Below the pieces are notes generated by a model that made no database searches, was not told where the DNA came from, and saw only the letters and a list, made by a program, of their open reading frames with translations. Source: Paramacrobiotus metropolitanus (taxonomy: Eukaryota; Tardigrada; Eutardigrada; Parachela; Macrobiotidae). Taken from it: a stretch of 64,000 nucleotides of DNA. This document shows positions 1 through 32,371 of the stretch, in pieces (the first letter of the stretch is position 1; each line of letters begins with the position of its first letter). Made by a program: the position numbers and the translations under genes. The stretch covers positions 930,001-994,000 of the forward strand of contig NW_026570272.1 in assembly GCF_019649055.1 (NCBI RefSeq). The letters run 5' to 3'.

Positions 1-1935
1 CGTCTGAGATCTTTCTTCAACAGAGTGAGTGTCCGATCGTTGACACAGCAACAGTGCAGTACATGTACTCTTCTAGTCGTTTGTTGTACTGTCCTAATGT
101 ATTTCTGTACAGTATTCCCGCGTTTCCCATAACCGTGTTAAATAATTATCTGTCAAACAGATGTGCCTGAGCCGTCTATCAGCGTTCTCGTACACCCGAT
201 CGTGGCTTCTATTCTGCTTCATCTAGATATCGAGACCCAACTACGGACATACCGGTACGTCTGCTATAAGAACTTTCGGATTAAGGGCAGCTAACCGGTA
301 AATGGCCCCCCGGTGATCATGATCATGTTCATCATGAATGCACGAAAACGTTCGCTTTCGCGCAATTGTTTCGTTGTCATTGTTTTATGAGATCATATAT
401 GGAAAATGGACTGTATACATTGGCGCGAAAACGGTTTGTCCGCGCGAAACTATGGGTAAAATAAAATTCCACACGTTTTGCCTAAAATCGCTCATTAGCA
501 TGAAGACCGGAGCCAGGTTTCTATCATTTTTTTAAATTTTAAAATAGTTCTTTTTAATTTTTATAATTTATTTTAACACTTTGAAACCATCTTGGAAACT
601 TATTTCCCTGTGAAATCGGTCTTCATGCCAAATTTCCATTTTGAGCAAAAATTGAGATGACCGGTCTATAATAAGACCTTTGGTGAACCTGAATACAGTT
701 AAAGCGTTTTGTAATTCTCAGCCATAATTCGTCAAACAGACGCTGCACGGAAAAACATTTTTCACGCCTATGTATACAAATCATTCAGCTTCACACTGCC
801 TAAATCGATGCAAAAAAGTGTCTCGATGCTTGAAAGCAAACGCTTTTGTGCATGCACACAAATTGGGTGCCATGTACCGGGTCGCGTTGCGTTAGTGTAC
901 TATTTTCTTGTTAATGACTCTGTACCTAATCTTGCACTCCCAGCAACGGGTTTTTCATGGTTGTTTATCAGGGTATGCGCGCTATGGAGGCTTCTTCTGT
1001 TTGAACCTGGAAACAATCGGCACATCATTTTTGACAAACGTCGAACACACCAAACGAAGCACTATGATCAAAATTCCAATGTGGAAAAGCAGTTCCGCAT
1101 CTTTAAATTCATGACCATTCTCAACCGCACATTGACGCAGCAGACTCAAACGCTAGCCCTAATTGAAGACCAACAGGCCGATACTCGATTGAACGGCCGG
1201 TATGGTGTCAAGGATACGCTGTCGGGTATCGGGATGTTGCTAGACGCCAAAAGCATTCGACTGCCCTTGATCATCGTGACGAATGGAAGTGATAACCTAT
1301 CATCTGGTTTTTTCTTGCCCAGTAGAAGCAATATTATGTACGGGGAAGACTATGGACGTTGGACGCTGACAGAGTTAATGTCGGTGTGTGAGGAACTGGT
1401 AATATTGAATTATAACGCGACAGCAACTATCGCTGGGCCCGCTCGGAGCATATGGTGCCAGTGTCCATTCAGGATGGACCAGCAAGAACGTAATACCGAA
1501 TCTCAGTCGGATGTTATCATTCCATTCCTGCGCTTCCGTTCTGGGGAAACAGCTGCTGAACACAATCGACGCTTTCTAGCCGCCGCGAACGACAACTGTC
1601 CAGCTGTAGCTCAGCGTATGCGAGACAATGTCACAGCGATACATGCGCGCTGGCTCCAGACGTTTCCCTATTCCGAGGAATGGTTACCATATCCCGACGA
1701 ATGGTTGCGCATTCGCATATTTCTGACAAAGTGAGGACAAACCACACAATTGCCGACACCCTGTATACCTGATTACACGTTTACATGAAAGAATCGCTTG
1801 CTATTAAACAGGTACAACACTTTGGGTTCCAATGACGATTCACTGCGATGGAACAGCATGGATCTGCGCCAACTCGACGTGTCCGCTCTTAGCAAAGTTA
1901 CTTTCGCAGCATTGATTAAATGCTTGGAAGGCTAA
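1..1935 (+). CDS. Tudor-like/F-box family protein, copy D (5' end outside window)
   Basis: Inferred exons are <1-24, 161-254, 972-1730 and 1812-1935. Every join keeps frame and matches the phases of the minus-strand copies: exon 1 ends phase 1 (A|AT), the F-box exon ends CG|G, and exon 3 ends AA|G. The 94-nt exon gives a degenerate F-box (HPIVASILLHLDIETQLR) completed after splicing by RVCALWRLLL. Exon 3 carries the family C-terminal domain (LPLIIVTNG, IPFLRFRSGE, AAANDNCP, HARWLQTFPY). The last exon has the LRR-like MDLRQLDVSALSKV before the stop. F-box proteins normally dock to Skp1 as substrate receptors of SCF ubiquitin ligases; that role is inferred here. The second intron carries a long-TIR element (about 330-890). 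No lesion seen in the visible part. Confidence 0.72.
330..890. mobile_element. Long-TIR miniature element, copy 1 (MITE family T)
   Basis: The left arm (about 330-460, read on the minus strand) and right arm (about 740-880) are diverged inverted repeats. Both contain a core like GAACGTTTTCGTGCAT and a segment like CACGCCTATGTATAC. A central inverted pair, ATGAAGACCGG near 499 and CGGTCTTCAT near 618, makes the middle palindromic too. The element sits wholly in the intron of copy D. Related copies are at 18.4-19.0, 34.4 and 35.8-37.0 kb. No ORF fits a transposase, so it is probably non-autonomous. Confidence 0.6.
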
Positions 1936-2367
1936 ACCATGCTACGGGTTGTATTCATATTCCACATCGTCTGTTTCTTCCACTACGTAGTTCATACAAC
2001 TTAGAACAGTGGACGTCTGGTTTGCTAGCGTTACGGCTAATACCTAAACAACGTTATTTTCACGACTTGGGTTTCCATCCGTTCTATGAAATTGATGATA
2101 TTCTCATCTGCTCTTATCTGATATTCTTATCGGCTCTTCTCTGTTCTCATCTGCTCTTGTTTTGCTTGTTTGCCTCGTCTGTTCGGTAAATACAGTACTC
2201 GTATTTGTATAAGGCCTTCTGGTCCTCGTTTTGTGTAAGAAATCTTGTGGTATTCATGATCTGTATATGGTTTTCGTTTGTGAAAAGCCATTGCTTCGTA
2301 ACCCTTCATAAATGCTTCAAGAAAACATTACCGATAACATTCTTAATAACAGCAGACCTAATCCGCA

Positions 2368-5300
2368 TCAATAACCGCTAAAGTAATAAGTATCTGCTTC
2401 TGGTGAATCTTCATCCAGTGTAGATCGTCGCTTAAAGACCACATACATTTCCAAACGGGCACACAGCTGTGCGTAGCTGAAGTGCTTCGGGTGGATAACT
2501 GCGTTCGGGACATACGCCGCGGTGTAATCGGCATTATACGCATGGATCAGCGTACAGTTTCGAAACACGATTTTCTCCCAGCAGAATGTTAAATTATAAT
2601 AATCCCACGATATCACTTGCCGGTATTCGGCAAGCGATCGGTCACCCGCCAGTTGTAACTGGCAGTTAGCAAAAACCATCTGCTTAATTTCTGTCCCGAA
2701 AGTCGTCTGATTTAGGATGAACTCGATTTCCCGGGTAGTCGGCTGCCAGTTACTATATTTCGCATTAATCATGCAAATGGTTTTGGTTGCTGGAGTGAGA
2801 CGTGTCAGCAGAATATTCATCAGTGTGAAATACGGCTGCCGGTCGTAGTAAGGGTACGGCGAGAGGGTTCTTTCGTTCATAGAGATACGGAAATCCCGGT
2901 CCAGCAGTGGAGACACTAAGAGTGAGTCCCACCGATTACAGACACGCCGACATCGATGTCGATCGATGGTGTCCAGACAGAGGAAGACCTCGATGACCAG
3001 TTCAGTCGGCACTGTGATGACGTGTACTTCACTGAAGGGAGCTTTCGGTTCCATCGTGTTTCTTTCGTCGAATCGTTTACGAACCCAGTTCTCGTAACCG
3101 GCTATAAAGGGACGGCCAGTGCGTCTTTTAAAGCAGTCCAAAGCTTCGTTCTGCATTCAGCATGGAAAATGCTTACAGTACAGTAACTGCTAAGAAGAAG
3201 AGCGGTTAGCCAGTTTTTCGAACAAAAAATATTTTCAACATTATTTTTTTTCCGTTGGACAGCCTTGACTAACAGGCCAGCTGTCCAGAACGTTTACGTT
3301 GTTGTAGCTTGCACGCGTATTCTCACGGGTTCGCACGGGGTTTGGCTCCGATCACGGAATTCGGAAACGGATTTGGTTATACACACGTCGAAATTTCTTA
3401 TTTTTAAAGTGAAATTTTATTAAAGATGCCTAGTGTAATGTATTTTGAAAACCGGAATTACTATAAGGAGTTATGGTTGTTGCACGGTTTAGCAGGAGCT
3501 GATCGAGTAGCTAAAGCAGGTAACAACTTTGGTGTTATTTTCTATATTATAAGCATCAGTTTAAATTGTTTAACTCGTTATGTTCTTATGCAATAATAGA
3601 AACGGAGAACCTATATTTGCGGTATAGTGTTTCCAGAGTACGCACTTTGGTCACAATTCACAAGTCTTCAACAGCAACAGCGAACAGTTGGTCAGCGATG
3701 CGTGCGAAAACTGGAAGCTGGAATCTGCGTGTGAAGAACTGCCGTTAGATCTGGCACGCGTTCACCAATGCGTTTGGGATAACGCGGTAATCCAAAAGGA
3801 TGTGGACACGTTGTGGAATATTATTGGTGTAGATAAAAGAACCGAAGCTCGCCTGAGAGCAGTCAGCACGAAGTACGCTGGGGCCTGGCTTAACGCCCTT
3901 CCCGCGAAAGTATTCGGCAACCTCCTGGATGATCAGACTTTCCGCATCTCTGTTGGCCTATGGCCTGGCGCCAAGATCGTAGAGCAGCACTCATGTGCGA
4001 GATGTGGCAAAGAGGTTGCGGAAAACGGATACCATGGGCTAGCTTGCAAGAAGTGCATCGGGAGAAGGGAACGCCATAATGGTATCAACGATATCATACT
4101 GCGAGCGCTATGTAATGCCGGCATTGAAGCATATCCGGAGCCCATTGGCTTTTTGCGTGAAAACGGAAAGCGCCCGGATGGAGCCACGCGTTGGAAGTGG
4201 TACCGCGGACAGCCGTTAGTTTGGGACGTCACTTGCAGAGACACGATGGCGGATTCATACATTGACGCGACTTCAAAGTGTGCTGGCGCTGCCGCTGAAC
4301 TGGCCTGCCGGGAGAAGATTGGAAAATACAAGTCGCTTATGGATCGCTGTAATTTTGTCCCCTTTGCATGCGAGACTTTTGGCACTTGGTGTGAGACCGG
4401 CATTATTACGTTAAAAGAGATTGGTAAAAAGTTGTTTTTAAGGACGGGCGAGAGCCGTTCTACTTGTTTTTTGTTTCAACGTTTAAGTTTAGAGATTATG
4501 CGTGGCAATGCGATGAGTGTTTTGTGCACTGTCCCTTCCCATGTTAATTGGGACAAATTCTTCATTTGATCAGTTTTGTTGAGGGAAGCTCGCCTTATAC
4601 ATATTGAGAAATAAAATTTTAGAATTCACAAGTACAACGTGATATTCCACTATTTATGACGATTTCTGAGCCACATGTGTTCCAAGCCTGCACGTGCGAA
4701 CGTTTTGAGTGAAGCTTGTAAAATCTGAATTTACTAGTTGCGAGTAAAACAGTACTATGCTACAGAAAGGAAATATTGCCAGTACATGTAGTTGTATTGT
4801 TTACCAGTGGGGTAGGCAAGTCCAGTTGGCTGTCCAGACGCTTGACATAGAACAGCGATGTGCTGGTCGCGACAACGAGATGCACGCAATAGTCCAGATC
4901 GAGAAAGTGTTTATACTTAGCCAACAACGGCACCGTGATCCCATCCCAGAAGGAAGCCGGCAATTCACGGCTGCTTATCATAAAGTCGCCGGGAAGCACG
5001 CGCCGGCTATCCATCTCCGATGCCGACGGCGGCAAGCGAGCCTGCCCTCGCGGCAGCACGGCCCATGTGGTGCGACCCGGTAGGCGCACTTTCACCTTCA
5101 CTTGGTCGTAGTGGTGAAGCCGGCCAGGATACCAGATCCACGCAAGATTTGGACGAATGCGCAGCAGCACTTGCACATCACTGCGTTCCACCGGCAGAGA
5201 ATCCCATTCTGGCATCACGGGCCACTGCGAGCTCTTATACGCTCTGCCATACTGTACGATGACTGAGCGCTGCAACGGACACCGAAAGTCCACAATTAAC

Positions 5301-5434
5301 GCATCTGGCATGACACCGACGACAATGCCGTGCTGGAGCTGTCCGTTGACCATGACATCCACACTGTTCCATTCTACGGTGGAAGTTGTGTTCTCCCCGT
5401 AGAGATACATTTCTCTAAACGTTTTTAAGATCAC
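2368..5434 (-). CDS. Tudor-like/F-box family protein, copy E (two exons)
   Basis: Inferred exons are 5434-4805 and 3150-2368, phase 0 at the join (CTG|GTAAAC; GAATGCAG|AAC), giving about 470 residues. Exon 1 is a diverged Tudor/agenet-like region (DVMVNGQLQHGIVVGVM, IVDF, then a WYPGRLHHYDQVKVKVRLPG stretch). Exon 2 has a clear F-box (VPTELVIEVFLCLDTIDRHR, then CRRVCNRWDSLL) and a C-terminal domain without recognised motifs. Domain order equals the other copies but intron positions differ, so this is an older branch. The 1.65-kb intron holds an opposite-strand retroelement fragment (3640-4620). If the join is wrong, the F-box ORF could start on its own at the internal Met near 3057. Likely an SCF adaptor. 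Confidence 0.62.
3640..4620 (+). mobile_element. 5'-truncated non-LTR retroelement: C-terminal CCHC plus restriction-like endonuclease
   Basis: An open frame at 3688-4569 (293 aa) has the finger C-x2-C-x7-H-x4-C (CARCGKEVAENGYHGLACKKC), then KRPDGATRWKW and LVWDVTC. This is the R/K-PD-x(n)-D arrangement of the restriction-like endonuclease at the C-terminus of R2/NeSL/CRE-type retrotransposons, although the PD-to-D spacing here is 15, slightly above the usual 12-14. No reverse transcriptase precedes it, so the copy is 5'-truncated. The frame ends ...MRGNAMSVLCTVP...FFI and an AATAAA follows near 4610. It lies antisense in the intron of copy E. The frame is uninterrupted, suggesting a fairly recent copy. 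Confidence 0.72.
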
Positions 5435-5834
5435 AGTTTACCGAAATACTGCTTGGTTTATTAGCGGTGTACGGTGCATACGGAGCGTGGTACGCTTTTC
5501 ATAATACAATTAGTGCGCGGCGGAATTTTACAATACCAGTGCAGGTGTAATCTTATCAGAGTCGAATAACTGAACCAACAGCTTATCTGTTGCATAATTA
5601 CAACTGGCTTTAATGATAACTTTATAAGCGTGCGCATTTTAATACCATCGTGATAAATATCAGTCAAGTAGGTACAGCGGCCTGGTATCTTAATACAAAA
5701 TCGCAGTATCCGTGCTAATTTAGTGTGGAAATTATTAGTGTGAAAATCACCTGAAGAAGTAGCTGATCAACTGCAGCGATTAATAATTTATTTTGTTGGT
5801 ACATCGTGATCGTGATAATTTGTTGAAGTACGCA
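5435..5834. other. Intergenic, between divergent genes
   Basis: Probable shared upstream region of copy E (minus) and the membrane-protein gene (plus). No coding signal or clear TATA element was recognised. Confidence 0.4.
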
Positions 5835-13263: not shown

Positions 13264-16200
13264 TCAGTCATTGTAGTACAGATAATACAGATCGAGAACG
13301 GCAAAGGTCAACTTATTCAACGCTGAGACGTTCAGCTGTCGCAAATCGACGTAATCCCAGAGCTGAGGGCTGCCATCGGTGCGAAGACCGTTGAACCTAA
13401 GTAGATAAACAAGAATTAAACTAGTTATAAGTACGGTAATGCCGTAAAAATACTGTTTCGCCACTCACGTCTGAAGGAAGTTGCGAATTCCTGTCCACTC
13501 TTCGGGATAGGCCAACGTCCGCACCCAGCGCGCATGCACCGCCGTGACCTTTTCCATCACCCGCTGCGTAACAGTCGGACAACTGTCGTTGGCTGCGGCT
13601 AACACGTTTTGACACTGTTCGGCGGGAGTCTCCGTGCAACGGAAGCGCATGAACGGGATAAGCACATCCAGGCGAACTTCGCCGTCCTTCCGCATAAAAA
13701 CCTTTTCACTGTCCGGCCACGTGTTACCGCTACCGCGCCACAGCAACATACTATAGTCGCCGCTCCGATCGGATACGGTGTATTTAATCAGCACCAGCTC
13801 TTGACACATGGCCATCCAATACGACAGTTGAAGGCATTCACACTCTCCACTCTGCTGGTCTAGCCACAGTTTTAAGCCGGGAAAGCCAGTATACACCGTG
13901 CTTTCAAAGCCGTTTTTGGCAATGATCAGGGGCACCCGAATGCGCTTGTTTTCCAGTACACGGCGTATTGTCGACATTTTTCTTGCGAAATCGTTTTCAC
14001 ACTCGTCGAACACTCGGTCATCCGGTGTTCTCTTGTCTACCAACGCCACCACGCGTGTCTCGCTGGAAACGGTGCGTTCCATGATTGCTGCTAGCTTGTA
14101 GTTTGTGACACAATTCAAAGCGCACTGTATCGAGCTGCCCCAGTGTTCCGCTGCACACGGGGACCGTACGACGAAAATGATGAGGCGATGCCGAACGTAG
14201 TCATGCGAAATCAGCCTCCACAACGCGCAGACGCTGAAAGCGATAACGATCGACTTTGCACACAGTGTATAGTTAAAGTAACATGCAAGCAGAAGTTAAT
14301 AGAAAGCAATCTGAACCCTACGAATACCGTTCCGAATACGAGTTCCCGCTTCTTTTGTAGACGTCAAAGCCCTATCCGTTTCGCAAACCTCTCGTAAAGC
14401 ACGAAATTTAAGCTCTGAATCGTAACGTATCTCCGGATAGCTGTCGATTCTGCCTGTCTCAATGAAATTCTGTTTGCTTTGGATTGTAACTTAGTAGAGA
14501 AAACGTTGCTCTTTTTTATGAGTGTAACAAATTTTTGAAAACTTTTTTCACAATTTAAAAACAGATTTTTGATTGACACGGGGTATCTGAATTTACGTTA
14601 AAAAATTTAAAAAACGGGCAATTGAATTTACGTTAAAAAATTTAGCTTGTGCGAGTCGTATAGGCATACGCATCGAGCTCTACCGACCAGAATGAAATTC
14701 AAAAAAACAGCCGGATCGAGTGCAGGCTGTGCAGCTAACTGCAGTCGCCGACTTGGGCGGTTGAGCACTTCCGATCTAAAGCCGTTTTTTCTTGACCACT
14801 TCGGCCGCGATACGTTTCGGCCGCATGCTATCACTTCGGCAACATACAATTCGCTTTGCTCACTTCGGTCCGCACTCTATTCGGCCACCGTTTGAATGAA
14901 AAGAACGTGATGGGTTTGTCAGTTTTCGCCAAAGTTGCCCCGAGCGACGCACGTTTTCTTCAATGGAGTTCTCTGTAAAGGTATGTTTAACTTACTGGCT
15001 CATCCGCAATTGCGAAATGGCATCCAGGGTCAGGAAGGTGCTCGCAATAATCGCCGCCGGAAGGGCGTAAAAGCGCATTTCCTCGGTTTCTGTAAAAATT
15101 GTTATTGAGTTAATAGTAGGTCTAGCAACACGTGCATGACACTTCTAAATTCAACCGATATGCTTGAGACAAACTCAGGAAAATGAGCCAAGTCATTTGG
15201 CTGAAGATACAGAAAAATCACAACTCAAGCTAAAAACGGTCTCTACTGAAAAATGAGGACATTATAGCGCGGAGTTCATCGAGGGAACAAAGATTCAAAG
15301 ATTACATTCTACCATTAAAAAAACATACTGTCCTCGTCGCTTTACCGGCAACCAGCTATGTATTACGTGCACTATTCCGACCTTGAGTCTATGACTTACT
15401 CACCGGATTGAAGAGGGGCCGCGGAAATGTTCAGCCCCATAATTTTTCCGGTTTGTGCAAACTTCCACGACCGCTGCTCGGCGAGGTAGCTTTCACATGC
15501 TCCCCGAAGAGAATTTTCATCCCAGAACATGCTTCGCCCGTCTGCGTCGTCGTGCATTTCGGCACAAATGAAGGTGACCGTATCACATCCTGCCCGCACG
15601 AACACATGACAACCACCTGGGAACCGATACCCAGGGCTCAAACAGTAGTGATCTCCCATATCGCGAAAATAACGGAAACAGAATTCGCACACTCCAGCCT
15701 CCCTTTCAAGTCGGTGGTTGTGAAAGCACCGGTCACCCGGGCCGAGCTTTAACTGGCACGTGTGCTCTGTGCACCAGAAACTCTGGCAAGCATTGCACAT
15801 CACGCAATAGCCGCGCCTCATCAAAAGCGATGACATGCTTTTTGTATATTAGTCCGCTGACTTTCCCGAAAAAACTTGGCTCCGTGTTGGGTGGTGGCAG
15901 ATGAGTGGTTAGCTGGCGCATTGGCACGATGCGGGGTTCAGGTGCAATGCTCTGGTTGGAGCCGTTGGGCTGATCCAGACTCACAACACAGTACATGCAG
16001 TAGAGAGCCTCAATGACAGTGGCAGGCCGGAAAACAAATGGTCCTCCGGGTTCGTCCTGTAGCGCCAAGTACATAGAAAGTCCGGGCGACGAGCGTTGAA
16101 GACAGAGATAGATCACAGGATGCGGCCACAAATGTTTAGCATGAATCCATTCGGCTTTGATTTTGCCGGCATCAAAATCAATGAAAAAGTAATCGCCGTC

Positions 16201-16323
16201 AATATCCTGAACGTATCCCAGCCACCACTGGCCGTTGTCGCGCTGAACCAGCACCGTGTTACCATGGTTCACCTCCCGCCCGCCAGAGCGCAACTCTCGA
16301 TAGTAGCGTAATGTCGGTGCCAT
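13264..16323 (-). pseudogene. Tudor-like/F-box family protein, copy B (7-nt insertion in exon 1)
   Basis: Inferred exons are 16323-15404, 15089-14996, 14233-13469 and 13396-13264, with the same phases as copy C (G|AA, CA|C, AC|G). Exon 1 has the Tudor-like VLVQRDNGQWWLGYVQDIDG and the Cys/His-rich tail. Exon 2 plus 3 give the F-box (ALPAAIIASTFLTLDAISQL then VCALWRLI). Exon 4 ends in YVDLRQLNVSALNKL. Near 15756-15775 the sequence carries 7 extra nt (AGAGCAC) relative to copy C, which throws the Tudor exon into a stop at 15733 while the rest of the exon stays open in the next frame. All splice sites are intact, so decay is recent or the lesion is a sequencing error. I start at the Met aligning with copy C; an in-frame Met at 16359 also exists. 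Confidence 0.68.
14640..14895. repeat. Degenerate ~16-bp CACTTCGGCCGC-type repeat in intron of copy B
   Basis: From about 14795 the phrase CACTTCGGCCGC / CGTTTCGGCCGC / CACTTCGGCAAC / CACTTCGGTCCGC recurs at roughly 16-nt spacing. Related phrases (ACATTTCGCCACGAG) recur at 36.2 and 39.5 kb. Confidence 0.45.
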
Positions 16324-17129: not shown

Positions 17130-20100
17130 CTAATTACGGAGATTAACGGTACTGAATGGCGATTTATTGCATGAAAATAAGCAGTGCTTGAAAATAAGCA
17201 GTGGATGAAAGTTCAGCACTGACACGTTCAGGTGTCGCAAATCGACGTTATCCCAGCGCTGTGGACAGCCATCCGGACGGATACCGTTTAATCTACGTAG
17301 ATCAACATGAATTTGGCGTTTAAATCAAAACCAGTTATCAGTAATGCCGTATAATAGCGTTACGCCACTCACGTTTGTAGGAAGCATCGAATTCCTGCCC
17401 ATTGTTCGGGATAGGCTAACGTCCGCACCCAGCGCGCACGTGCCGCCGTGATCTTTTCCAGCAGCCGCTGTGCGTAACGGCCGGACAACTGTTGTTAGCT
17501 GCGTCTATCAAGCTTTGACAATGTTCGGCGGGAGTCTCTATGCAACGGAAGCGCATGAACGGAATAGATACATCCAGGCGCCCTTTGTTATCATTCCGCA
17601 TAAACGCGCGTTCACTTTCCGGCCACCACTGTCCGCTACCGTAGCACAACAAAATATTGTTAATACCGTCGTCGGTCCGTTCGGAAACGGTATAGTTAAT
17701 CAGCACCAGCTCTTGACACATGGCCAACCAATGCGACGGTTGATGGCACTCAGACTGCCCACTCTGTGTATCCAGACACAGCTTCAAAAAGCGGACGCCA
17801 TAATACATCGTGCTCTCATAGCCATTTTTGGCAATGACCAACGGCAGGCGAATGCGCTTGTCTTCCAGTACACGGACCATTGTCGACATTTTTTTTGCCA
17901 AATCATTTTCGTCTTTGTCGAACTTTCGGTCACCCGGCGTTCGTTCGTCTACCAACGCCACCACGCGTTTCTCGTCGGAAACAGTGCGTTCCATGATCGC
18001 TGCTAGTTTGTAGTTTGTGACACAATTCAAAGCGTACTGTATCGAGCTACCCCAATGTTCCGCTGTGTTTGAAGAATTGACGACGAAAATGATGTGGCGA
18101 TGCCGGACATAGTCATGCAAAATCAGCGTCCACAACGCACAGACCCTGTAAGGCGTGTAAGCGATAAGAGAATACAACTAACAAAATGTATGTGCAATCA
18201 TCAATGCAAAATGTAAGCTGGAGCTAATATTAACTTACTGGCTCATCCGTAACTGAGAAAAGACATCTAGGTTGAGGAAGATGATGGTAATAATCGCCAC
18301 TGGAAGGTCGCAAAAGCGAATCTCCTCCGTTTCTGAAAAAAAAATAAATGAAGCGAATTCGATATACATTTGTATCTTATCGAATTCATGAACATCGCGA
18401 TGTAAATTGATGATGTATGAAAACTTTCGCTTTCTCGCTCCCCCAAACACCATTTGACATCTTTTTAATACATTCTAGGGTTTACTGATTGACAGACTCT
18501 GATTGTATACATTGGCTTGAAACCCATTTGTAAGCGTAACATTCGGTTGGGAAGTAATATAATTCCAAAAGTTTAAGCGCAGGTGCACCAAAAGTCTCAT
18601 CTATTATGAACCGATAATCTTTAAATTTCACATAAACACGAAACTTTACTTGAAATAAAAACATCGGCCTAAAATAATTCTTCATGTTGATGTGCGTTTT
18701 TACGCAAATTTTGAAGTTAATCGGCTCATAATGAAACTTTTGGTACACCTCCACGCGTTTAACGTTTGGAATTTCTATTCATCCATAACTCCCCAACCGG
18801 ATGTTTCGCGCATAAACGGTTTCACGCCAATACATACACTTCATTTTGCTAAAGATGTAAACAAATATAAAAAAGTGTTTGGGAGTGCGCGAAAACGAAA
18901 GTTTCTGTTTATGTACACGAATTCGATGCCATGCGCCGGCACACTTCCCTTAATGGAACAAAAATTGCACGACACTTCTGATTTCTTTCGATATGCATAA
19001 AATAAAATGAGCACCATGGAGAAAAGTTATTTGGCTTAAAGCACGTTCGAACGAAAAAATCACAAATTAGGACAAAAACGGTCTCCCAATTGGCATGGAG
19101 GGCACCCAGTGCGCCGAGTTTATTTACTCTAGTGCAGCCTGGCAAGTTGCCATGACAGATTAAACTACAACTCATTCATTTTATCAACAGGAAAAGCATT
19201 TTATCCTCATCGTTTAAATGACAACCAGTGCTCTATTGCGTGCGTTATCCCGGCTACGATGTACTCCCCATATTGAAGAACGGCCGCTGAATCGTTCGCC
19301 TCCATAATTTTGCCGCCTTGTGCAAATTCCCACGACAACTGCTCGACGACGTAGCTTCGGCAAGCTTCCCGAAGAGAATTTTCATCCCAGAACATGCTTC
19401 GTCCCGCTGCGTCATCGTGCAATTCGGCGCAAATGAGGATGATCCTGTTATATTCTGCCCGCATGAACACATGGCAACCGATAGGGAACCGATACGGAGT
19501 GTTATACACACTATTCGCCCCATAGTGATCTCCCATACAGCGGAAATAGAATTCGTACGCTCCACCCTCCCTTTCAAGTTGGCAGTTCATATTGCACGGG
19601 TCACCCGGGCCGAACTTTAACTGGCACATACGAACCAGATACTCGGGCACGCATTTTACATCGTCAAAAGCAATGATATGCTTCTTGTATGACATGCGTC
19701 CGTTGACTGTCAAAAAAAAACTTGGCTCCGTGCTGGGTGGTGGCAGATGGGTGGTCAGCTGGCGCACGGGCACGATGCGGCGTTCAGGTGCCATGCTTTG
19801 GTTGGGCTGATCCAGACTCACAACACAGTACATGCAGTAGAGATTCTCAATGACCTTGACTGGCCGGAAAACGAACGGTCCACCGGCTTCATCCTGTAAC
19901 GCCAAGTACATAGCAATGCCGGGCGACGAGGGCCGAACACTGAGAAAGACCACAGGATGCGGCCACAAATGCTTGGAATGAATCCATTCCGCTTCGATTG
20001 TGCTGGCATCAAAATCAATGAAAAAATAATCGCCGTCAATATCCTGAACGTACCCCAGCCACCATTGGTCGTTGTCGCGCTGCACCAGCACCGTGTTACC

Positions 20101-20160
20101 ATGGTTCACCTCTCGTGCACCCGAGCGCAGCTCCCGATAGTAGCGTAATGTCGCGGTCAT
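17130..20160 (-). pseudogene. Tudor-like/F-box family protein, copy A (three lesions)
   Basis: Expected exons are 20160-19269, 18332-18239, 18145-17373 and 17292-17130. Exon 1 is open and close to copy C (NHGNTVLVQRDNDQWWLGYV). F-box exon: LPVAIITIIFLNLDVFSQL. Lesions: (1) the exon-1 donor, G|GTGAGT in copies B and C, reads G|GGGAGT, so GT is lost; (2) two extra nt (CA) near 17472 shift exon 3 after NSCPAVT, although the downstream frame (EKITAARARWVRTLAYPEQW) persists; (3) exon 4 loses homology after LRHLNVSVLN and continues as unrelated sequence. A miniature element (18400-18960) lies in the first intron. Most likely a recent pseudogene. Confidence 0.75.
18400..18960. mobile_element. Long-TIR miniature element, copy 2 (MITE family T)
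   Basis: Left arm (18400-18580, inverted) and right arm (18780-18960) share AACCGAATGT/AACCGGATGT, CCAATGTATACA/CCAATACATACA, TGTTTGGG(A/G)G and GCGAAAGTTT blocks. Arms are about 170 bp. The copy is inserted in an intron of copy A. Confidence 0.68.
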
Positions 20161-20536: not shown

Positions 20537-20608
20537 TGCACCGTCGGGGGAATCGAACCCCGGCTACGTCGTTAGATCCGCGTAGGCAGTACCACTGCAC
20601 CACGGCGC
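20537..20608 (-). tRNA. tRNA-like sequence, imperfect (pseudogene or SINE head possible)
   Basis: Read on minus it begins GCGCCGTGGTGCAGTGGTA and ends ACGGTGCA. The 7-bp acceptor stem pairs fully (one G-U). GTTCGATTC forms a T arm with four G-C pairs and a fifth C-C mismatch. The stem CTACG/CGTAG in the anticodon position closes a 12-nt loop instead of 7, so no anticodon can be read; a 5-nt intron or degeneration could explain it. The D arm pairs only weakly. A TTTTT run directly follows the 3' end, as in Pol III genes, and A- and B-box-like words (TGGTGCAGTGG, GGTTCGATTCC) are present. Confidence 0.5.
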
Positions 20609-21604: not shown

Positions 21605-21680
21605 TTACAAGATAACTGTTATAAGAATAATGTTTTCTAGTACTAAGTTTGTACTTGTGACATGATACTTATTAAAGGCA
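21605..21680 (+). mobile_element. Solo 3' tail of a retroelement
   Basis: CTGTTATAAG... then TAGTACTAAGTTTGTACTTG and GATACTTATTAAAGG match the 3' tail after the ORF stop of the element at 21763-22560 and the fragment at 36547-36632. Interpreted as an extreme 5' truncation. Confidence 0.6.
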
Positions 21681-21762
21681 GCAATTCGTATTCATACGAA
21701 CAATGCATTATAAGATAACAATTTCGATTAGCGAGTTCATCCTGTGTTTAAAGACTACAAAG

Positions 21763-22560
21763 GAGGAAGTCGCCCACCTGAAGGCGGTATCCGTCCCGGA
21801 AGCTGGAGTATGGATCCATGCTCTGCCTGCAGCATGTCTCGGTAACCTGCTGGAAAACAACGCCTTCCGTATAAGTGTGGCGCTGCGTTTCGGAGCACCA
21901 GTTGTTACACCAATTGTTACACCTCACGTGTGTGAATGGGGGTAGATGGTCGACAACTTAGGACGACACGGGATCCTGTGCAAACGATCAGTCGGAAGAC
22001 TGCCTCGATACGACGGTATCAGTGGGGAGTTCACTCGCGGATTAAAGACGGCCGGTTTCTCAGCAAGAATGGAGCCGAAAGGTCTATCCGTGAAAGATAA
22101 CAAGAGGCCGGATGTGATCACACTTATACCGTGGGAACGGGGAAAACCGCTAGCAGTGGATGTGACGTGCGTCGATACACTCGCAGCTTCGTATATTGAG
22201 CGCACCTTCGCTAACGTTGTGCTGCAGCCGAGCAAGCGGAAAGGAGGAAACTGGCAAAACACGCCTGGATACAATCGAGATATAATTTCACCGCTGCAGC
22301 GTTCGAAATTCACGGCCCATGGAGTGACAGGACTAAGCACCTAGTGCACAAGGTCGGGAACGGTATCGCCACTGGCACAGGCCAGAAACGGGCGAAAGAG
22401 TTTTTTAGACGGCGGTTATCTATCCAAATGCAACGGGGAAACGCGATATGTGTTATAGGTACAATCCCCGAGCAGGTTAGCATTCAAGAAATGTTTTTGT
22501 TATAAATCTCATCTTTTTAGTACTCAGTTTGTACTTACATGACGATACTTCATAAAGACT
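21763..22560 (+). mobile_element. Decayed retroelement, restriction-like endonuclease remnant
   Basis: Homologous to the 3688-4569 frame: GVWIHALPAACLGNLLENNA, then LGRHGILCKRSVGRLPRYD, then KRPDVITLIPWERGKPLAVD and VTCVDTLAASYI (PD-x15-D endonuclease motif). It has an in-frame TAG at 21943-21945 where the first zinc-finger cysteines should be, and the frame is lost near 22300, resuming as RRRLSIQMQRGNAICVIGT and ending MFLL-stop at 22505. The 3' tail follows to about 22560. It belongs to a different subfamily from the 3.7-kb copy. Confidence 0.68.
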
Positions 22561-22960: not shown

Positions 22961-23044
22961 ATGCCGCGCGCTCCGGTTGTTGGCATCGCATTAGGATCCG
23001 CGCACTTATGTGTGGCCGAACACCAGGTAAGGAAAGTGAACGCT

Positions 23045-24169
23045 TGTAACCGTCCAAAACGACCGGTCGTCAGAGACGACCGCCGGTCGTTTCAGCCTCT
23101 AAACCGTTCGAAACGACCGGGGGCCGCCAAAACGACCGCCGTAAATTTTGCCCTACCAGTTTTTTTCGCTCTTTCAGTCGCAAACAAAACGAATGAATGC
23201 AATTTCGTGTCTGGTCGTTTCTGCCGGAGTGTACTTTCGTGCCCGGTCGTTTCTGCCGGAATGTACTTTTGTGTCCGGTCGTTACTGCCGGAGTGTAATT
23301 TCGTTTTCTGTTGCTTCTGCCGGAGTGTAATTTCGCATTCGGCCACTTCTGCCGGAGTGTACTTTCGGGTCCGGTCGTTTCTGCCAGAGTGTAAATTCGT
23401 ATTCGGTCGCTTCTGCCGGAGTGTACTTTCGTCTCCGGTCATTTCTGCCGAAATGTACTTTTGTGTCCGGTCGTTACTGCCGCAGTGTAATTTCGTTTTC
23501 TGTTGCTTCTGCCGGAGTGTAATTTCGCATTCGGCCACTTCTGACGGAGTGTAATTTCGTGTCCGGTCGTTTCAACTGGAGAGTTTCCACACTCCGGCAG
23601 AAACGACCGGACACGAAAATACACTCCAACAGAAGCGACCGAATACGAATTTACACTCTGGCAGAAACGACCGGACACGAAAGCACACTCCGGCAGAAGC
23701 GGCCGAATGCGAAATTACACTCCGGCAGAAACGGCGGAATATGAAATTACACTCCGGCAGAAACGACCGAATACGAAAGTACACTCCGGCAGGAACTACC
23801 GGACACGAAAGTACACTCCGGGAGAAACGACCGGACAGGAATAGTACACTCCGGCAGTAACGACCGGACACGAAAGTACACTCCGGCAGTAACGACCGGA
23901 CACAAAAGTACATTCCGGCAGAAGCGACCGAATTAAAAATTACACTCCGGCAGAAACGACCAGACACGAAATTGCGTTCATTCGTTTTGTTTGCGACTGA
24001 AAGAGCGAAAAAAACTGGTAGGGCAAAATTTATGGCGGTCGTTTTGGCCATAGAATATGTTTTAGAATATAGAATCTCTCGTTTTGGCGGCCCCCGGTCG
24101 TTTCGGACGGTTTAGAGGCTGAAACGACCGGCGGTCGTCTCAGACGACCGGTTTTTTTGGACGGTTACA
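23045..24169. mobile_element. Foldback transposon, 1.1 kb palindrome with 32-bp internal repeats
   Basis: The two halves are inverted copies. Ends read TGTAACCGTCC...GGACGGTTACA, flanked by a 6-bp duplication AACGCT at 23039-23044 and 24170-24175. The outer ~160 bp of each arm is near identical; the right arm has an extra ~35-nt AT-rich insert (about 24050-24085). The inner parts are tandem 32-nt units built on TTTCTGCCGGAGTGTA followed by a CGGTCG core. The centre is near 23580. Encodes no transposase; it would be mobilised in trans. It lies in intron 1 of the Hsp70 pseudogene. Confidence 0.85.
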
Positions 24170-26004
24170 AACGCTGTTTAGTTTCATTACCGTAAAGGGT
24201 AGTCACAAGATAAACATGCCATTTAAATTTCAGGAAAACATCGAAATTCTTGCGAACAACCATAGCCAGCGCATCAGGCCTGCATACGTGTCCTTTGCTG
24301 ATACAGAGCGATCAACCGGCGATGCCGCCCGCTGCAGAGCTTCGAGGGGCGCATTTACTGCAATTTATTCATTATATTTTAAGAATATTTTTTATAGTAC
24401 GACGATATTATCAGTCAGTTTGATAGTCAGCGTTGCAATAACTGTCGCGCAGATTTGAGTCCGTTGCTTGCCTTGATTTCGCCTGATTTGTATTTGTTAA
24501 CGCTATATAAAACGCTACAGGATCAAGAAAACGGGAAAACAGTCTTTGGTGTCATGCGGTTGCTCGGGCGCAACTGGGATGATCCTGAATTGCAGAGCGC
24601 CATAAGGTACTGGCCCTTCCACCTACCCAATGACGATAACGACCCCAAAGTCAGTGTGACCCACAACGGAAGGACCGAGGAACTCTTTCCCGAAGAGATT
24701 ATCGCGGTACTTGTGAGAAAGATGGTGGATACAGGATCATACATCGCAGAAAGTTCTTGGGATGCGGGTTAATGATATCGTCCTGACTGCGCCGGTCAAC
24801 TTTCCCACGGAACAACGCCAAGCTGTGACCGACACAGCCACTATTGCGGGTGTTCACATCATCCGAAAGTCCCGAATGATAAGCAAGTCGACAGCGGCAG
24901 CGTTGGCTCTGACTGCATTGGACTCATCGGTACTGCAGAAAACGTAATTCATGGTGTTTTTGTCACAAACTCTGTATTATTACACAAAGGAGAAGCAAGC
25001 AATATTTTATTCAAAATATTTTAATAGCGATGCTTGCAAAAATTGCAGAGCACTATACAACACGAAGCAACTTATGAAAACTAGCACGACGTAGCTTTAA
25101 TCTTTGCAGAGCATTAAACAACATAAAACAACTCAAAAACTAGCACGACGTTGTTTTCCATTTTCTTTATAAATTTTGCCTTTGCAGACCAAAGACGAGC
25201 GCAACGTAGTCGTCTTCAGTCTAGGCGCCGGCGCTTGTAGTGTTCCTGTTATTACCATTGAATTCGACATTGTTGAAGTTAAGTCCAGCGCTGGAGACAA
25301 TCACCTGGGCGGCTTTGAGTTTGAAAACCGTTTGATCGAACACTTTCGTCAGGAGTTTAAGCTTACAATTAAATATAAACGAGACAACACGGAAGCTGTC
25401 TTTCAGCACGATCGCGAGGCAACGTGGATTCCTTGGCGAGATCGTATTAAATATCATTAGCGTAACTATTAGGTTATGTGCCCAGCTGTGTACACCCAAA
25501 AGATGACCCAAGAAGATGTGATTGGAACCGAGGCAATAATTATTTTACGGCCTACAATTCTGTAATTTTAGTCAACGCCACGAAAATGTTTCTTTTTTTC
25601 GGCAGGATAGATAATGATTCCCTTCAAGACAATAACGGCTTCTTCAGTAGCATTTCCCGTGTGCGCCTTGAGGAGCTGAATGCTGACTTGTTCCAGAAAG
25701 CGTTAAATCTTGTTGAGAGAGCGTTAAAAGACGCTAAAATGGATCGGAGTGAAGTCCATGACATTGTCCTAGTTGGTGGCTCAACTCGTATACCAAAAAT
25801 CCAAGAACTGCTTCAGGTACATACAGTAGTTCACAATTGTCGACAACATACAAAGAGGGCAAGACGCGCTCCTTTTGACGTAGCACGGGGACGTGATCTA
25901 ACACTGGGACTGTCTGATGCGACGGATGCATGAATGACCGCGCGACTAGTGCACAGCTGTCATCAAAAAGTGTTTTGGGGTTATGATCAATATGACCTAC
26001 TGCA

Positions 26005-26073
26005 CACCTAGTTTTCCAGGTTATGTTGAATTATCGCAGTGCCTTAATTCAACATAACCTGGAAAACTAGGTG
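26005..26073. repeat. Perfect 29-bp inverted repeat, 11-nt loop
   Basis: Arms 26005-26033 and 26045-26073 are exact reverse complements, beginning CACCTAGTTTTCCAGG. Inside an Hsp70-pseudogene intron. It could be a small MITE or a foldback RNA; no ORF. Confidence 0.8.
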
Positions 26074-27506
26074 CAACCGCACTTTCGCTGCTATGCAGAT
26101 TCGCTGATCTTCAGGCGTACCTTGCTTGCTCACTTTTCTAGCAATTGGTTCATTTAGTCTGGGTGCGTCGCTTGATGAGCATTGAAAACTATCACTTTAT
26201 TACAGAGTTCAGTCAGAAAATTCATAAGAAATTAACACTGAACAACCAGAAAATTAGGGTTTCTAAGTAATACTTAAACACCTCTACACAACATTCATAA
26301 AGCTCGGACGAGAGGATATTTGCGTACAAGTTTCCTATACCTGAACATTTCCCGACAACAATCCGGGGTCATACCAATGGCACTCTGACTTTCTTACTGG
26401 GAGTGTCATGTAAGCGTATTTGTTATAGGAGTTTTTTCATGGGAAACCTCTGAACCACTCTCTCAACCCGGAAGAGGCCCCTGCATACGGCGCAGGGATT
26501 TTATCCGCTATCTTGTGTGGAAAGAAAACACCAGCTTGTTTGCAAGACATCTTGTTAAGGGACACGGTACCGTTTTCCCTCGGCATCGAAACGAACAGCG
26601 GAGAGGTGGAAACCATCATCCGGAAACACACAACTATCCCCACCAAGATGACCCCCCCCCCGCAGCAAGTTGCCCTGCAATGCGGGGATGACGGCACTAA
26701 GGGTTTACGAGGGTGAACAAGCCTTGACAAAGGATAATGTAAGAAAAATCGTTGCTCTGTTTAATGTTTTCTACGATTCGGACCAATACAGCGTGATAAC
26801 GGACTTGCAAAGCGGAGACGCTAGCTGACTGTATTCAATAGCTTTCTATCGAAGTGACAGATTTGATGCGCGTCAAAAGTGTCATTAATGGCGTAAAAAG
26901 AAATCATTCATCTTTACGTATGTCATTAAATAGCTGCATTAACTTCTAAGTGATCAATCTAAACAATTTCACCGATGTTAGAGTCTGCTTGGTTTGGTGC
27001 TCCTGCCGACAGATGACTCTGAAAATGCAAAGGAAGACGATGACGTTGAAGTTTGGCTAGATGTGGACGCAAACAAGGTTCCGAGTCTTTCGGCTATAAC
27101 TGAACGAACCGGCAGACATCATACAACGACAATACCGGAAACAGTCGTTTTACGCAAGACCAACTGGACCGCATGATTAAGAAAGCACAGAAATTTCGCC
27201 AAGATGACGACGCAGAACAGCGCCGCACTGCAGCCCGCACTAAACTTGAGAGTTACTGTTTTACAATGAAACAGAAACTAACAGTGGCCATGCACAGGTA
27301 CGACGAAATTTTGCAATGGATGGATAACGACACGGTATCGGTAATTTGATTAATCGTCTTGTGACTGCTTTAATTTAGGTATTCCTGTAGGTATACCGTA
27401 TAATAGCCGTGCATTGCTGTTTTCAGTTGATAAAGAGGAAGAGTACGAGAAGTCGCATGCCGCAGATCGCAGATCGCAAAAAATAATCGCAGACGCAACA
27501 ATTTGA

Positions 27507-29884
27507 GATTTTATGTAACGTCCCATCCATAAAAACCCATCCATAAGGCTGCCGATTACGGGTGGAAAATATTACGCGAACATTTTACTGGTGGAAAACG
27601 ACTCGGTGGTATCGACGTGAATAATATACGTACATGGAAGATGTGCATTTCCGTAATCCATAATCGACCGAAGCGAAGCGAAGGTCCTCTATGTTCACAC
27701 AGACAGGACATTTTGTCGGTCATGTCGGTCACGCATAATTCTGTCCGTCGGTCACGCACGAACAAATTAAAAGTTACGACGTAGCATAGCCAAGTACATA
27801 ATAACGACAAATTACAGCAGCATCCCAGTTATTTTACGCCGAAGCCTATAGGGGCGCATAGTAATACAATTCGTTTTTTGGGGCCTCTCCGTCCCTCTTG
27901 ATTTAAATAATATCTAAACTACCGCAATACAATTTGCGCTCCCTTTCACCCCCGTTTGCCACCCCCTTCTTCGCACCTTGTTTTTTATAGGCAGTTTTTT
28001 TTATCAGCATTTAATTCAGCTGTTGGTTTTTATAGGTAACCGTTTTATTTTCTAGCTCTATAAGAAACGTATGGTAAGTTTTCTGCATTTCGGGGCAATA
28101 ATAATGATATTCATGACCTTTTCAGTAGAGGACATTATCATTTCAACAAAAACGTTGGGTTTTCGGCACAGATTTCGCTTAACTCGTGATTTGCATTTTT
28201 TTAGCTTTGCTCCCTTGGTTAGTTGCTTCCCCTTTGATGCGAATGCTGGCGATGTCGTTAACTGTGACTGTTTCCTGACTTTCCTCTATCTTTCCTCAGC
28301 GAGCGGGTGGTAGTAGGTTGTGGCCAGTATCTTTGTCGCTTATCCTTAGGGCTTAAGTGTGCTCACATCCACGAATTCCTGTGCACGCTGTCAGAGGGAC
28401 ACCTTTCAAATATATTTTGTTCAATGCAGAAGGAGTGGTTTCTGCAACCGGGCGATCACGAGCGACACTGGTAACTTTCTGCTCCTTATGTACGCGTAAC
28501 GCACACATTATAGGTACACCGTACAGCACTGTATCATGATACAAGTATTATCGAGTTAATCGAAAACGCACTTAACGTGATTACAAGAAAATAAGGTGTC
28601 TATAAACAAATTAAAAAATTATAAAAATAAAGCTCATAATTAACGGGTGCGGAAAATGTGTGGCTATAAAAAACCGGGTTGTTACGGGTGGCTATAGTGT
28701 CACCCTTTCTTTTTTGGTGGCATTTGAAAATGTGTATATATACTTAGCGAAAAAACTGTGACGAGTTTTGCGGTTTCAGTGAACTTGGCTTCTTTATTTT
28801 AAGATGTTCTGAGTTGTAAATTGGTCAGAAACGTTCTTATTTGCGCTGCATGCCTGCTCTGTGGTCACTCTCGCCATCATATTAAAATATATGAAATGCT
28901 ATTACAATAACGTTTATGTGCCTCCCGCTTCCCAGTGTACATATTCCGTCAGTTCTTCTTTGTTTTGCGAATCGATGTCGGTAACCTAGTTTTAGATTAC
29001 CTGATTTTTAGATCACCTTATCTACAGTACGTCTTCTAAGCAAGATAAACGCCATTAAACGGGCAAATAAAATCGACAACTACAGTACGTACTTACAAAT
29101 AATTAATATCTATATTTATTTTGGCGCTTCGCTTCGGTCTTTTAGTGCCAGCCTATAGCGGTGCACTTCCCTAGTATACTGCCTCCATCCATAAAGTATT
29201 AATATACTCCACTCAAAAAACTTTTATGCATTATGTTGTGTCAAGCAGCAGTAAAATATCGTTAGGCAACGACCGCAAGGGTCTTTGTTGATTTATGAAC
29301 CGAAAGCTCGTACTTCAGCTACGATACCTTTCCGTCGCTGCTCCTTAAGCATGTGACTGCATATCGACACAGCGGAGATGGGGTATCAAAATTGTATGGA
29401 AAAGTTTTCTGTTTTCGAAGGCTTGAACCCTGAAGCCCTTAATCTTAAAAACCGCATCCTTCGCTGTGCTGTGTTATGATATTCCCTGCATTTTATTTTT
29501 CGGAGCGCACTGCTATCATTTCAACTTACAAACAATACATAAAATGAGTATGAGCAAAATCGGAACAAGGGAAGTAACATGTTTCAGCGTTACAAAGACA
29601 TCGAAAGTTCCCATCATCCACCGTGTCAGAACTAAAAAGCACCGCCATAGTCAACACAGCCATGGTATTGTGTTAAGATAAGGGGCTTTCCAAGGGCGAG
29701 GCATGCAATCACTGTACGTGCTGCCGTCACCCGGCTGGAGTATGGACAGAAATGGTTAAATCATTACGTTGCGGCACTACAAACGGTTAGTTCTGTGGTG
29801 CGACACATTAGCATCATGTTGTACAGAGACTGTTTGGCTCAGCCTTTTAAAACGTCCGTACGAGGTTTGATAACTTTTGAATCG
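27507..29884. other. Intergenic, low coding signal
   Basis: AT-rich, with a long-range diverged duplicate: about 29320-29600 resembles 43040-43330 (shared words GTCGCTG, GAGATGGG(G)TATCAAAAT, GGAGCG(C/G)ACTGC). No ORF with family features. Confidence 0.4.
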
Positions 29885-32371
29885 TCAGTCGTTGTAATAC
29901 ACATCAAGAACGGCAAAGGCCAACTTGTTCAGCGTCGACACGTTCAGCTGCCGCAGATCGACATTATTCCAGCTCTGCGCACTGCCATCCGGATGAAGAC
30001 CGTTCAATCTACATTAACCAGAAACTCGCGGTCAAACCCAACGAGTTGGTAGTAACGCCGCCTAATGCCACTGTCTACTCACCCCTGAAGAAAGTTGCGA
30101 ATTCCGGTCCACTGTTCTGGATAGGCCAACGTCCGCACCCAGCGCGCATGCACCGCCGTGATCTTGTCCAGCACCCGCTGCGTAACGGCCGGACAACTGT
30201 CGTTGGCGGCGGCTATCATGCTTTGACACTGTTTGGCGGCGGCCTCCGTGCAGCGGAAGCACGCAAACGGTATTACTATGTCCAGGCGCCCTTTGTCTCC
30301 ATGCCGCATGAAGGCACGTTCACCTGCCGGCCACTGTCCGCTCCCGTAGCACAGCAACATATGATAGTCGCTCGTCCGATCGGAAACGGTGTAGTTAATC
30401 AGCACTAAGTCTTGACACATGGCCATCCAGTATACTAGCTGGCCGCATTCAGACTGACCACTGTGCTCGCCTAGTCCCATTTTCAAAAAGGGAAATCCAC
30501 AGTACACCGTGCTTTCATAGCCGTTTTTGGCAATGATCAGGGGCACGCGAATGTGCTTCTTTGCCAGCACGCGGTGCATTGTCGACATATTATATGCGAA
30601 ATCATCTTCATATTTGTCGAATATCCTGTCAGCCGGCGTTCTTTCGTCCACCAGCGCCACCGCTCGGGTCTCCTGGGAAACAGTGCGTTCCAGCATCGCT
30701 GCCAGTTTGTAGCTTGTGACACAGCTGAAAGCGCCATGTACCGATCTACCCCAATGTTCCGTTGCGGAAGGGGAACGAACGACAAAAATGATGTGGCGAT
30801 GCCGGACGTAGTCATGTAAAATCAGCCTCCACAACGCGCAGACCCTGTAAGCGATACCGAGCGACCAGTAAAACACTGTACAGTACTACAGTATGCTCAA
30901 AGAAACATGCAAGCAGGAGCAAATGTTAACTTAAGGACAATAACTGCTGCGTTTAATAATTTTAGCCAAGTTGGCTCCAGTGACGCGTTCCTATTGAAAT
31001 AAAATCGAATTGACAGTATGCTTAACTTACTGGCCTATGCGTAGCTGAGAAATGACATCCAGGTTGAGGAAGACGCTGGCAATAATCGCCATCGGAAAGT
31101 CATAAAATCGCATTTCCCCCGTTTCTGCAAAATATTGGATTAATGAAAATAAAAGATTTTTGGCTAAAAGTACGTCTAAACAGAAAAATCACTGTCCAAG
31201 ACATAAACCTTCTCTCAACTGATAATTTTTGATTTGAAATCTGCAAATGAAAGTTTTTTTAACAGAAGGGTACTTTTCTTCACTGTATAAAGGGTATAAA
31301 ACCAGGTACCTATCTTCCACCGTTCCCCTGTACTGATGCCGTCACCCGACTGGGGTGTGACGTTGTGGCTGAACAAGGCGCTTCCGTACCGCGCCAGATT
31401 TAACCTATTTATTGCCGTAACGTCACACGTAACGTCACGTGACCTATTCCGGCTATGGGTCGGATGACGCACTCACCAAATTGAAGAGGGACTGCGGAAA
31501 AGTTCGCTCCCATAATTTTTCCGGTTTGTACAAACTCCCACGACAACTGCTCGGCGAGGTAGCTTTGGCATGCTTCCCGAAGAGAATTTTCTTCCCAGAA
31601 CATGCTTCGTCCAGCTGGGTCACCGTGCAGTTCGGCGCAAATGAATGTGATCCTGTCATATTCCGCCCGCACGAACACATGACAGCCGATAGGGAACCGA
31701 TACGCACTACTCGCCCAGTAGTGATCTCCCGTACATCGGAAATAGAATTCGCACGCTCCCACCTCTCTTCCAAGCTGGCAGTTGCTATTGCACGGATCAG
31801 CCGGGCCGAGCTTCAGCTGGCACGTGCGAACCAGAAACTCGGGCAGGCAGTTCACATCGCGCAGTGCATGCGCCTGTTCAAAAGCGATGACATGCTTTTT
31901 GTACATAAGTCCCTTGACTCTACCAAAAAAACTTGGCTCCGCGTTTATTGGTGGCAGATGGGTGGTTAGCTGGCGCTTAGGCACGATGCGGCGCTCAGGT
32001 GCAATGCTTTCGTTTGGCTGATCCAGGGTCACCACACAGAACATGCAGTACAGGTCTTCAACGACCGTAACGCAGCGAAAAACGAATGGTCCGCCGGGTT
32101 CGTCATGTAGAGCCAAGTACATCGAAAGGCCGGGCGACGAGGGCGGAAGAGTTAGAAAGACCACAGGATGCGGCCACAAATGCTTTGAATGAATCCATTC
32201 GGCTTTGATTGTGCTGGCATCAAAATCAATGAAAAAGTAATCGCCGTCAATATCCTGAACGTATCCCAGCCACCACTGGCCGTTGTCGCGCTGTACCAAT
32301 ACCGTGTTGCCATGGTTCACCTCCCGCCCGCCAGAGCGCAACTTTCGATAGTAACGTAATGTCGGGGCCAT
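29885..32371 (-). CDS. Tudor-like/F-box family protein, copy C (intact reference copy)
   Basis: Four exons, 32371-31477, 31124-31031, 30844-30083 and 30008-29885, total 624 residues with no lesion. All introns are GT-AG with phases 1, 2, 2. Domains: a Tudor/agenet-like fold about residues 18-65 (VLVQRDNGQWWLGYVQDIDG, FFIDFD, HLWPHP); a Cys/His-rich stretch about 190-235 (CQLKLGPADPCNSNCQ, CEFYFRCTGDHY); an F-box about 307-345 split by an intron (FPMAIIASVFLNLDVISQL then VCALWRLI); a C-terminal domain with VPLIIAKNG, IPFACFRC, AAANDSCP and HARWVRTLAYPEQW; and a last LRR-like VDLRQLNVSTLNKL. Inferred role: SCF substrate receptor with a Tudor-like reader. The Met at 32371 aligns with the other copies. 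Confidence 0.78.

Follow-up and report, generated by a model that had tools for sequence, protein, structure and literature searches.

An expanded family of predicted Tudor-like/F-box proteins in the genome of the tardigrade Paramacrobiotus metropolitanus

Results

Gene copies in the window

The DNA analysed here, called the window throughout, is a stretch of 64,000 nucleotides of Paramacrobiotus metropolitanus (positions 930001-994000 of contig NW_026570272.1) that carries several copies of a gene in which a predicted Tudor-like region and a Cys/His-rich region are joined to an F-box. F-box proteins connect targets to Skp1-Cul1. One layout of four exons is common to copies A, B and C and to the 3′ part of copy D (Table 1), whereby exon 1 encodes the Tudor-like and Cys/His regions, exon 2 the first half of the F-box, and exon 3 the rest of the F-box together with a C-terminal domain, after which exon 4 follows. 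Copy C is intact, as it encodes 624 residues in a stop-free frame and all of its introns are GT-AG. The original prediction, made from the letters of this stretch, had placed five copies in 32 kb. Copies A, B and C were found where it put them and D at 1-1935 on the forward strand, while the fifth, the open reading frame (ORF) at 4763-5410, was not retained. The exon junctions 31477|31124|30844 that it gave for copy C are exact as GT-AG in the sequence, although exon 4 had been missed. It had also stated that exon phases are common to four copies. The junctions do lie at homologous positions in A, B, C and D, each of which has an exon 2 of 94 nt; the summed exon-1 phase of A deviates because of a frameshift only. 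This frameshift comes from 7 nt inserted near 15772 in exon 1. In copy B the exon-1 donor reads GG and not GT, exon 3 carries an insertion of 2 nt near 17472, and exon 4 is degraded. The lesions of both copies may stem from assembly error; both insertions lie outside homopolymer runs. The remainder of exon 1 of copy D lies beyond the window edge, and its exon 3 matches that of C with an E of 1.5e-35. Directly upstream of copy C, at 32948-33611, an 82-bp unit forms a tandem array.

Table 1. Positions of the family members and their parts and of two further ORFs in the window
Feature	Positions	Strand	Observations
Copy C exon 1, Tudor-like and Cys/His regions	31477..32371	-	ATG to GTGAGT donor, open frame; at least 133 genomic exon-1 matches
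Tudor-like core of C, residues 15-70, best-conserved segment	32162..32329	-	pairwise identity averages 0.72 among 35 copies; weak Agenet/Tudor_4 matches
Cys/His-rich region of C (C184, C194, C198, C213, H217, C245, C268)	31568..31822	-	conserved among 35 copies
Copy C exon 2, first F-box half; Pfam match begins at about 31101	31031..31124	-	94 nt, AG/GT borders; PF00646 21.2 bits in joined peptide
Copy C exon 3, F-box end (to about 30811) and C-terminal domain	30083..30844	-	domain homologous to that of the single-exon F-box family
Copy C exon 4, with the stop codon and a conserved C-terminal tail	29885..30008	-	
Copy A	13264..16323	-	exons 16323-15404, 15089-14996, 14233-13469, 13396-13264
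Copy B	17150..20160	-	exons 20160-19269, 18332-18239, 18145-17373, exon 4 remnant from 17292
Copy D, 3′ part	1..1935	+	exon 1 ends before about 25; exon 2 161-254, exon 3 972-1730, exon 4 1812-1935
Single-exon F-box gene, second family (ORF 2371-3156)	2368..3156	-	PF12937 E 2.1e-7, PF00646 E 6.5e-7
ORF like exon 1 in layout only	4763..5410	-	family membership unsupported

F-box and Skp1

That an intron interrupts the F-box, as originally predicted, is borne out by the spliced peptides. When excised, the joined peptide of copy C passes the Pfam gathering score of PF00646 (21.2 bits, cut-off 20.5), and at E<=1 PF00646 is matched by 30 of 38 such peptides, namely 26 of the 31 in a first set (best E 3.5e-7) and 4 of the remaining 7. 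Among the non-matches, L014 has a poor exon-2 model, and L026 and L034 lack one junction residue in the peptide. The motif V-C-x-L-W is invariant across 31 aligned F-box peptides. A profile search of the PDB with the F-box returned three rows (E 0.54-0.91), all of them F-box proteins (F-box/LRR-repeat protein 17 twice and F-box DNA helicase 1). Skp1 genes are present in the genome, with 4 loci above the cut-off among 6 candidates.

Copy number and arrangement in the genome

The assembly that was searched has 169,799,020 bases in 533 contigs. An approximate SAHS query found one locus in it (E 6.3e-6), whose exon translations, once joined, match SAHS1 (E 2.9e-43) and SAHS4 (E 2.2e-20) in the PDB; as SAHS proteins are not known outside eutardigrades, this agrees with a eutardigrade genome. 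Exon 1 of copy C has at least 133 matches in the assembly (132 scored of 798 candidates) and exon 3, for which the original prediction had proposed a genome-wide count, at least 153 (150 scored of 716 candidates), the best 150 of these 153 having an E of 3.0e-22 or lower. Both numbers are lower bounds because only the best candidates were scored. A multi-copy family that couples an F-box with a Tudor-like domain is supported, at a scale larger than the window could reveal. We also searched the Tudor-core sequence QWWLGYVQDI as a 30-base degenerate pattern with up to 2 mismatches, which gave 260 genomic matches (122 forward, 138 reverse), and the reversed control gave 0 on either strand. Since 37 of 40 sampled copies lie within 2 mismatches of this pattern, a fair estimate is about 280 Tudor-core copies genome-wide, broken ones counted in; it may be noted that the 40-copy sample is biased to C-like copies. 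Of the 133 exon-1 matches, 87 are followed downstream, within 4 kb, by an exon-3 match of the same strand (21 have one upstream and 19 one on the other strand), and 89 of the 133 have another exon-1 match within 25 kb, against a mean of 4.5 for random placement. The exon-1 and exon-3 distances correlate over 27 loci (r 0.73, reached in 0 of 2000 permutations), so that the two exons have mostly travelled together. In-frame stops occur in 14 of the 133 exon-1 matches and in 14 among the best 150 exon-3 matches. The birth and loss of copies suggested originally is borne out by the genomic arrays and by the lesions in A and B.

A further 40 genes were taken from the genome and modelled with A-D, giving 44 copies. 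In 41 of them the exon-3 acceptor lies at the exact expected base, against an AG dinucleotide frequency of 5%, and exon 2 is 94 nt long in 27 models and 97 nt in 8. As phases were assumed in these models, the independent support comes from where the acceptor lies and from the F-box-like sequence within exon 2. All automatic checks were passed by 27 of the 44. Copy D fails them because most of its exon 1 falls outside the window, and some of the failures may be due to the models rather than to the genes. An exon-4-like tail with a short motif is present in 20 of the 44 copies, of which at least one (L011) is probably a chance match.

Exon 1

Pfam was applied to 36 exon-1 sequences, ORF 4763-5410 counted in. 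Agenet was matched by 13 of these (best E 2.6e-4) and Tudor_4 by 14 (best E 0.014), and copy C alone had one match, to Tudor_4, at 15 bits against a cut-off of 25.8. A profile of residues 13-146, built from 28 of the 36, was compared with the PDB, where ten sequences were listed, none significant, 8 of them of Tudor type: FXR2 (E 0.027), FXR1 (0.065), FMRP in four rows (0.1-0.35), Polycomb-like (0.34) and eggless (0.39). A peroxisomal receptor (E 0.49) accounts for the remaining two rows. With a profile of the whole exon, T-cell receptor chains came first (E 0.14-0.17), which we take as chance, and FXR1 and FXR2 next (0.24); the second half of the exon gave no useful match (best E 1.2). Because of the Agenet, Tudor_4 and PDB profile results the first domain of exon 1 is likely to be Tudor-like, whereas the same assignment for the second region is unproven. 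The Tudor/agenet-like fold of the original prediction has moderate support, for that first domain. A tandem repeat of two Tudor domains was considered and rejected, homology between the two halves not being detected, and the PDB similarity is a lead only as regards an origin of exon 1 from FMRP. The aromatic residues W34, F50, W59 and W66 do not vary among 35 copies and, by analogy with Tudor domains in general, may have a cage role. The Cys/His stretch noticed earlier is present in the copies. Of 35 copies, 33-35 have each of its C184, C194, C198, C213, C245 and C268, while H217 is conserved in 29; the region probably binds zinc, judging from these residues. Neither a KH nor a transposase family is among the 10 Pfam families matched by the 36 exon-1 sequences, and one scan with a single 7-residue pattern found no viral relatives of exon 1.

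C-terminal domain and the single-exon F-box family

In 34 exon-3 copies no Pfam family was matched by more than one copy (best E 0.0053) and no leucine-rich repeat (LRR) family at E<=1. The exon-3 profile gave one PDB row, FMRP, at E 1.2. The window also holds a gene of a second, single-exon F-box family, which is large, its window member having at least 146 genomic matches (146 scored, 806 candidates). A genome search with PF00646 placed 150 of 150 scored candidates above the cut-off, out of 1080 candidates in total, many of them in open frames of about 300 amino acids. The Tudor exon is absent from the ORFs of the single-exon family, and there is a second F-box expansion without this exon in the same genome. 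We compared the C-terminal domains of the two families with the F-box cut from both sides, the single-exon set being 21 proteins (20 genomic and the 2371-3156 gene of the window). After gap-rich columns had been removed, hhalign scored the pair 42.3 over 119 columns, while the maximum of 200 column shuffles was 20.7. In an untrimmed run the real pair scored 40.9 and reversed and unrelated profiles 10-15, with 3 of 200 shuffles at 132.7-135.1. Two of these three are short alignments (15 and 33 columns) reaching the gap-rich end of the shuffled template, and we take the three scores as end artefacts. Because 42.3 stands against a shuffle maximum of 20.7, the two families are, by profile comparison, judged to have a homologous C-terminal domain, which rules out the "private" C-terminal domain of the original prediction. 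The simplest reading would be one F-box superfamily of which one branch has gained the Tudor-like exon, the direction being assumed.

Conservation and selection

Ratios of nonsynonymous to synonymous substitution rates (dN/dS) were obtained by Nei-Gojobori counts from pairs that share sequences and are non-independent, and the set took in copies A and B, although broken, as well as ORF 4763-5410, whose membership is doubtful. The median is 0.32 for exon 1 (143 pairs, dS <1.3) and 0.39 for exon 3 (123 pairs), and 0 of the 266 exon pairs exceed 1. By region, over pairs with dS <2, the medians are 0.16 for the first Tudor-like domain (522 pairs), 0.44 for the second region and 0.29 for the Cys/His region. 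Mean identity follows as 0.72, 0.40 and 0.48 for the same three parts and 0.45 for the F-box peptide; in exon 3 it is 0.31 in the first two thirds and 0.56 at the end. The low dN/dS with no pair above 1 implies that the sampled lineages are constrained on average. Positive selection was also looked for in sliding windows of 45 codons over eight close exon pairs and was not found, with 0 of 203 windows above 1 and a maximum of 0.98; as dS is 0.35-0.70 in these eight pairs, a rapid recent episode could escape notice. The family behaves as a set of genes under constraint, in which the anchor is fixed and the C-terminal domain varies, and the current arms race suggested by the original prediction is unsupported.

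Other features of the window

ORF 4763-5410 resembles exon 1 in layout. Against the exon-1 profile it has an E of 0.12 and a probability of 0.5%, and shuffles of the ORF rank among the best-listed rows while the ORF itself does not; as a fifth copy it is unproven and was not accepted as a member. Two ORF stretches, at 3628-4569 (+) and 21676-22505 (+), are alike by eye (AWLNALPA/VWIHALPA, RPDG/RPDV, WDVTC/VDVTC) and resemble the tails of retroelement proteins; Pfam gave no match at E<=0.01 for 3628-4566 and 21946-22344. A large inverted structure with 32-bp tandem repeats in both arms spans 23041-24173, its outer arms (23041-23135 and 24079-24173) being 95% complementary, and by appearance it is a foldback-type element. 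At 24398-26760 (+) lies a broken HSP70-like gene in several frames, with PF00012 in three stretches (best E 5.3e-18), which looks decayed. GC content reaches 0.65 and 0.55 within 40001-44000 against a background of about 0.44.

Discussion

The family is probably best explained as a lineage-expanded set of F-box proteins serving as substrate receptors of the SCF (SKP1-CUL1-F-box) ubiquitin ligase, a reading that draws directly on the gene structure, the F-box sequence, the size and clustering of the family, the shared C-terminal domain, the purifying selection seen on average and the presence of Skp1. From these we infer Skp1 docking, target choice and a ligand of the Tudor-like domain. The split F-box would dock on Skp1, and target selection would fall to the variable C-terminal domain of exon 3, a distant form of which occurs in the single-exon family, and perhaps also to the second half of the Tudor-like region. 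The first Tudor-like domain, which is nearly constant, may together with the Cys/His region bind one common partner, e.g. a methylated protein or ribonucleoprotein, and with such a shared partner many receptors are proposed to act at one place. Several results weigh against this explanation. The whole protein of copy C falls below the PF00646 cut-off (15.7 bits, E 0.014), single members have modest F-box scores, and 8 of the 38 peptides have no PF00646 match at E<=1. The Tudor assignment comes from weak scores, and its two halves are without detectable mutual homology. Neither Pfam nor the PDB profile revealed in exon 3 an LRR, a WD40 or any other domain known to bind substrates. Also, only 4 Skp1 loci were found here as against the 20 skr genes of C. 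elegans given in PMC12680543.

The family may instead be drifting, in the sense that birth-and-death (genomic drift) in tandem arrays leaves many decaying duplicates and some functional receptors with no adaptive pressure. The broken copies A and B, the in-frame stops (14 of 133 in exon 1 and 14 of the best 150 in exon 3), the passing of every automatic check by 27 of 44 modelled copies and the lack of any dN/dS above 1 are all in keeping with it, but the medians of 0.32 and 0.39 with no pair above 1 indicate average constraint and the Tudor-like core averages 72% identity; we regard this reading as rather unlikely. We consider improbable a role as readers of chromatin or RNA granules, in which the F-box would bind Skp1 outside SCF, e.g. 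in a structural complex, and no degradation would follow. The Tudor-like module, rather than the F-box, is the most conserved part and the best PDB matches include the Tudors of FXR/FMRP and Polycomb-like, yet the F-box core is conserved as well, with V-C-x-L-W invariant in the 31 aligned peptides, and the genome has a related F-box family of single-exon genes with ORFs that lack the Tudor exon. Origin or spread as a mobile element or virus and not as a host gene family, for which the retroelement-like ORFs (by eye) and the repeats between the window copies might speak, is very improbable, given that the copies are intron-bearing, diverged, constrained and arrayed (89 of 133 with a neighbour within 25 kb, random 4.5) and that the single 7-residue pattern found no viral relative of exon 1 in its one scan.

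Returning to the SCF receptors, the closest known parallel in kind is in Caenorhabditis, where FBXA and FBXB are likewise large lineage-specific F-box families expanded through tandem duplication, C. elegans having 377 genes and C. remanei 1426 (PMC8665587). The tardigrade family differs in its N-terminal Tudor-like and Cys/His exon and in a C-terminal domain for which no Pfam family is matched in more than one of 34 copies. The same paper gives C-terminal windows above 1.5 for 73 of 95 paralog pairs and for 25 of 37, in contrast to 0 of 203 windows (8 pairs) above 1 here. The F-box A2 genes of Caenorhabditis captured the helix-turn-helix domain of Tc1/mariner (PMC12062965), and are alike in that an F-box family acquired an extra domain and was then multiplied; the difference is that the added part is Tudor-like in the tardigrade, with no transposase family among the exon-1 Pfam matches. 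Outside the nematodes, the tandem Agenet (Tudor) domains of FMRP/FXR are the best solved-structure matches to residues 13-146, mainly to the first domain, though not significant (E 0.027-0.35), and the tardigrade family differs in having an F-box and a Cys/His region, with KH domains unmatched in exon 1. The F-box/LRR proteins (FBXL) are similar in that the C-terminal domain comes directly after the F-box and has, by eye, alternating helix-like and strand-like segments, but LRR is unmatched by Pfam in the 34 exon-3 copies at E<=1.

Among the open-licence papers listed for tardigrade F-box, ubiquitin-ligase, gene-family expansion or F-box with Tudor/agenet, none describes this Tudor-like/F-box family in its title or in the opening of its abstract. 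A broader reading, which we regard as doubtful, is that the tardigrade lineage has a few hundred Tudor-directed receptors anchored at one methylated structure, such as chromatin or a granule of PIWI-interacting RNA (piRNA) or other ribonucleoprotein, with targets set copy by copy through the variable C-termini; these could serve innate immunity or genome defence or be a source pool of toxin-antidote elements, convergent with the F-box clusters of nematodes. Very large expansions of F-box genes in animals are best known in nematodes, where they are discussed with immunity, germ granules and toxin-antidote elements (PMC12062965 and PMC12680543). The present family would be a second, apparently independent animal F-box expansion, this time in a tardigrade and with an added Tudor-like module of near-constant sequence. 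A comparative test of why F-box families expand would thereby become possible, and many genes in a model of stress tolerance would, as one large block, gain a name.

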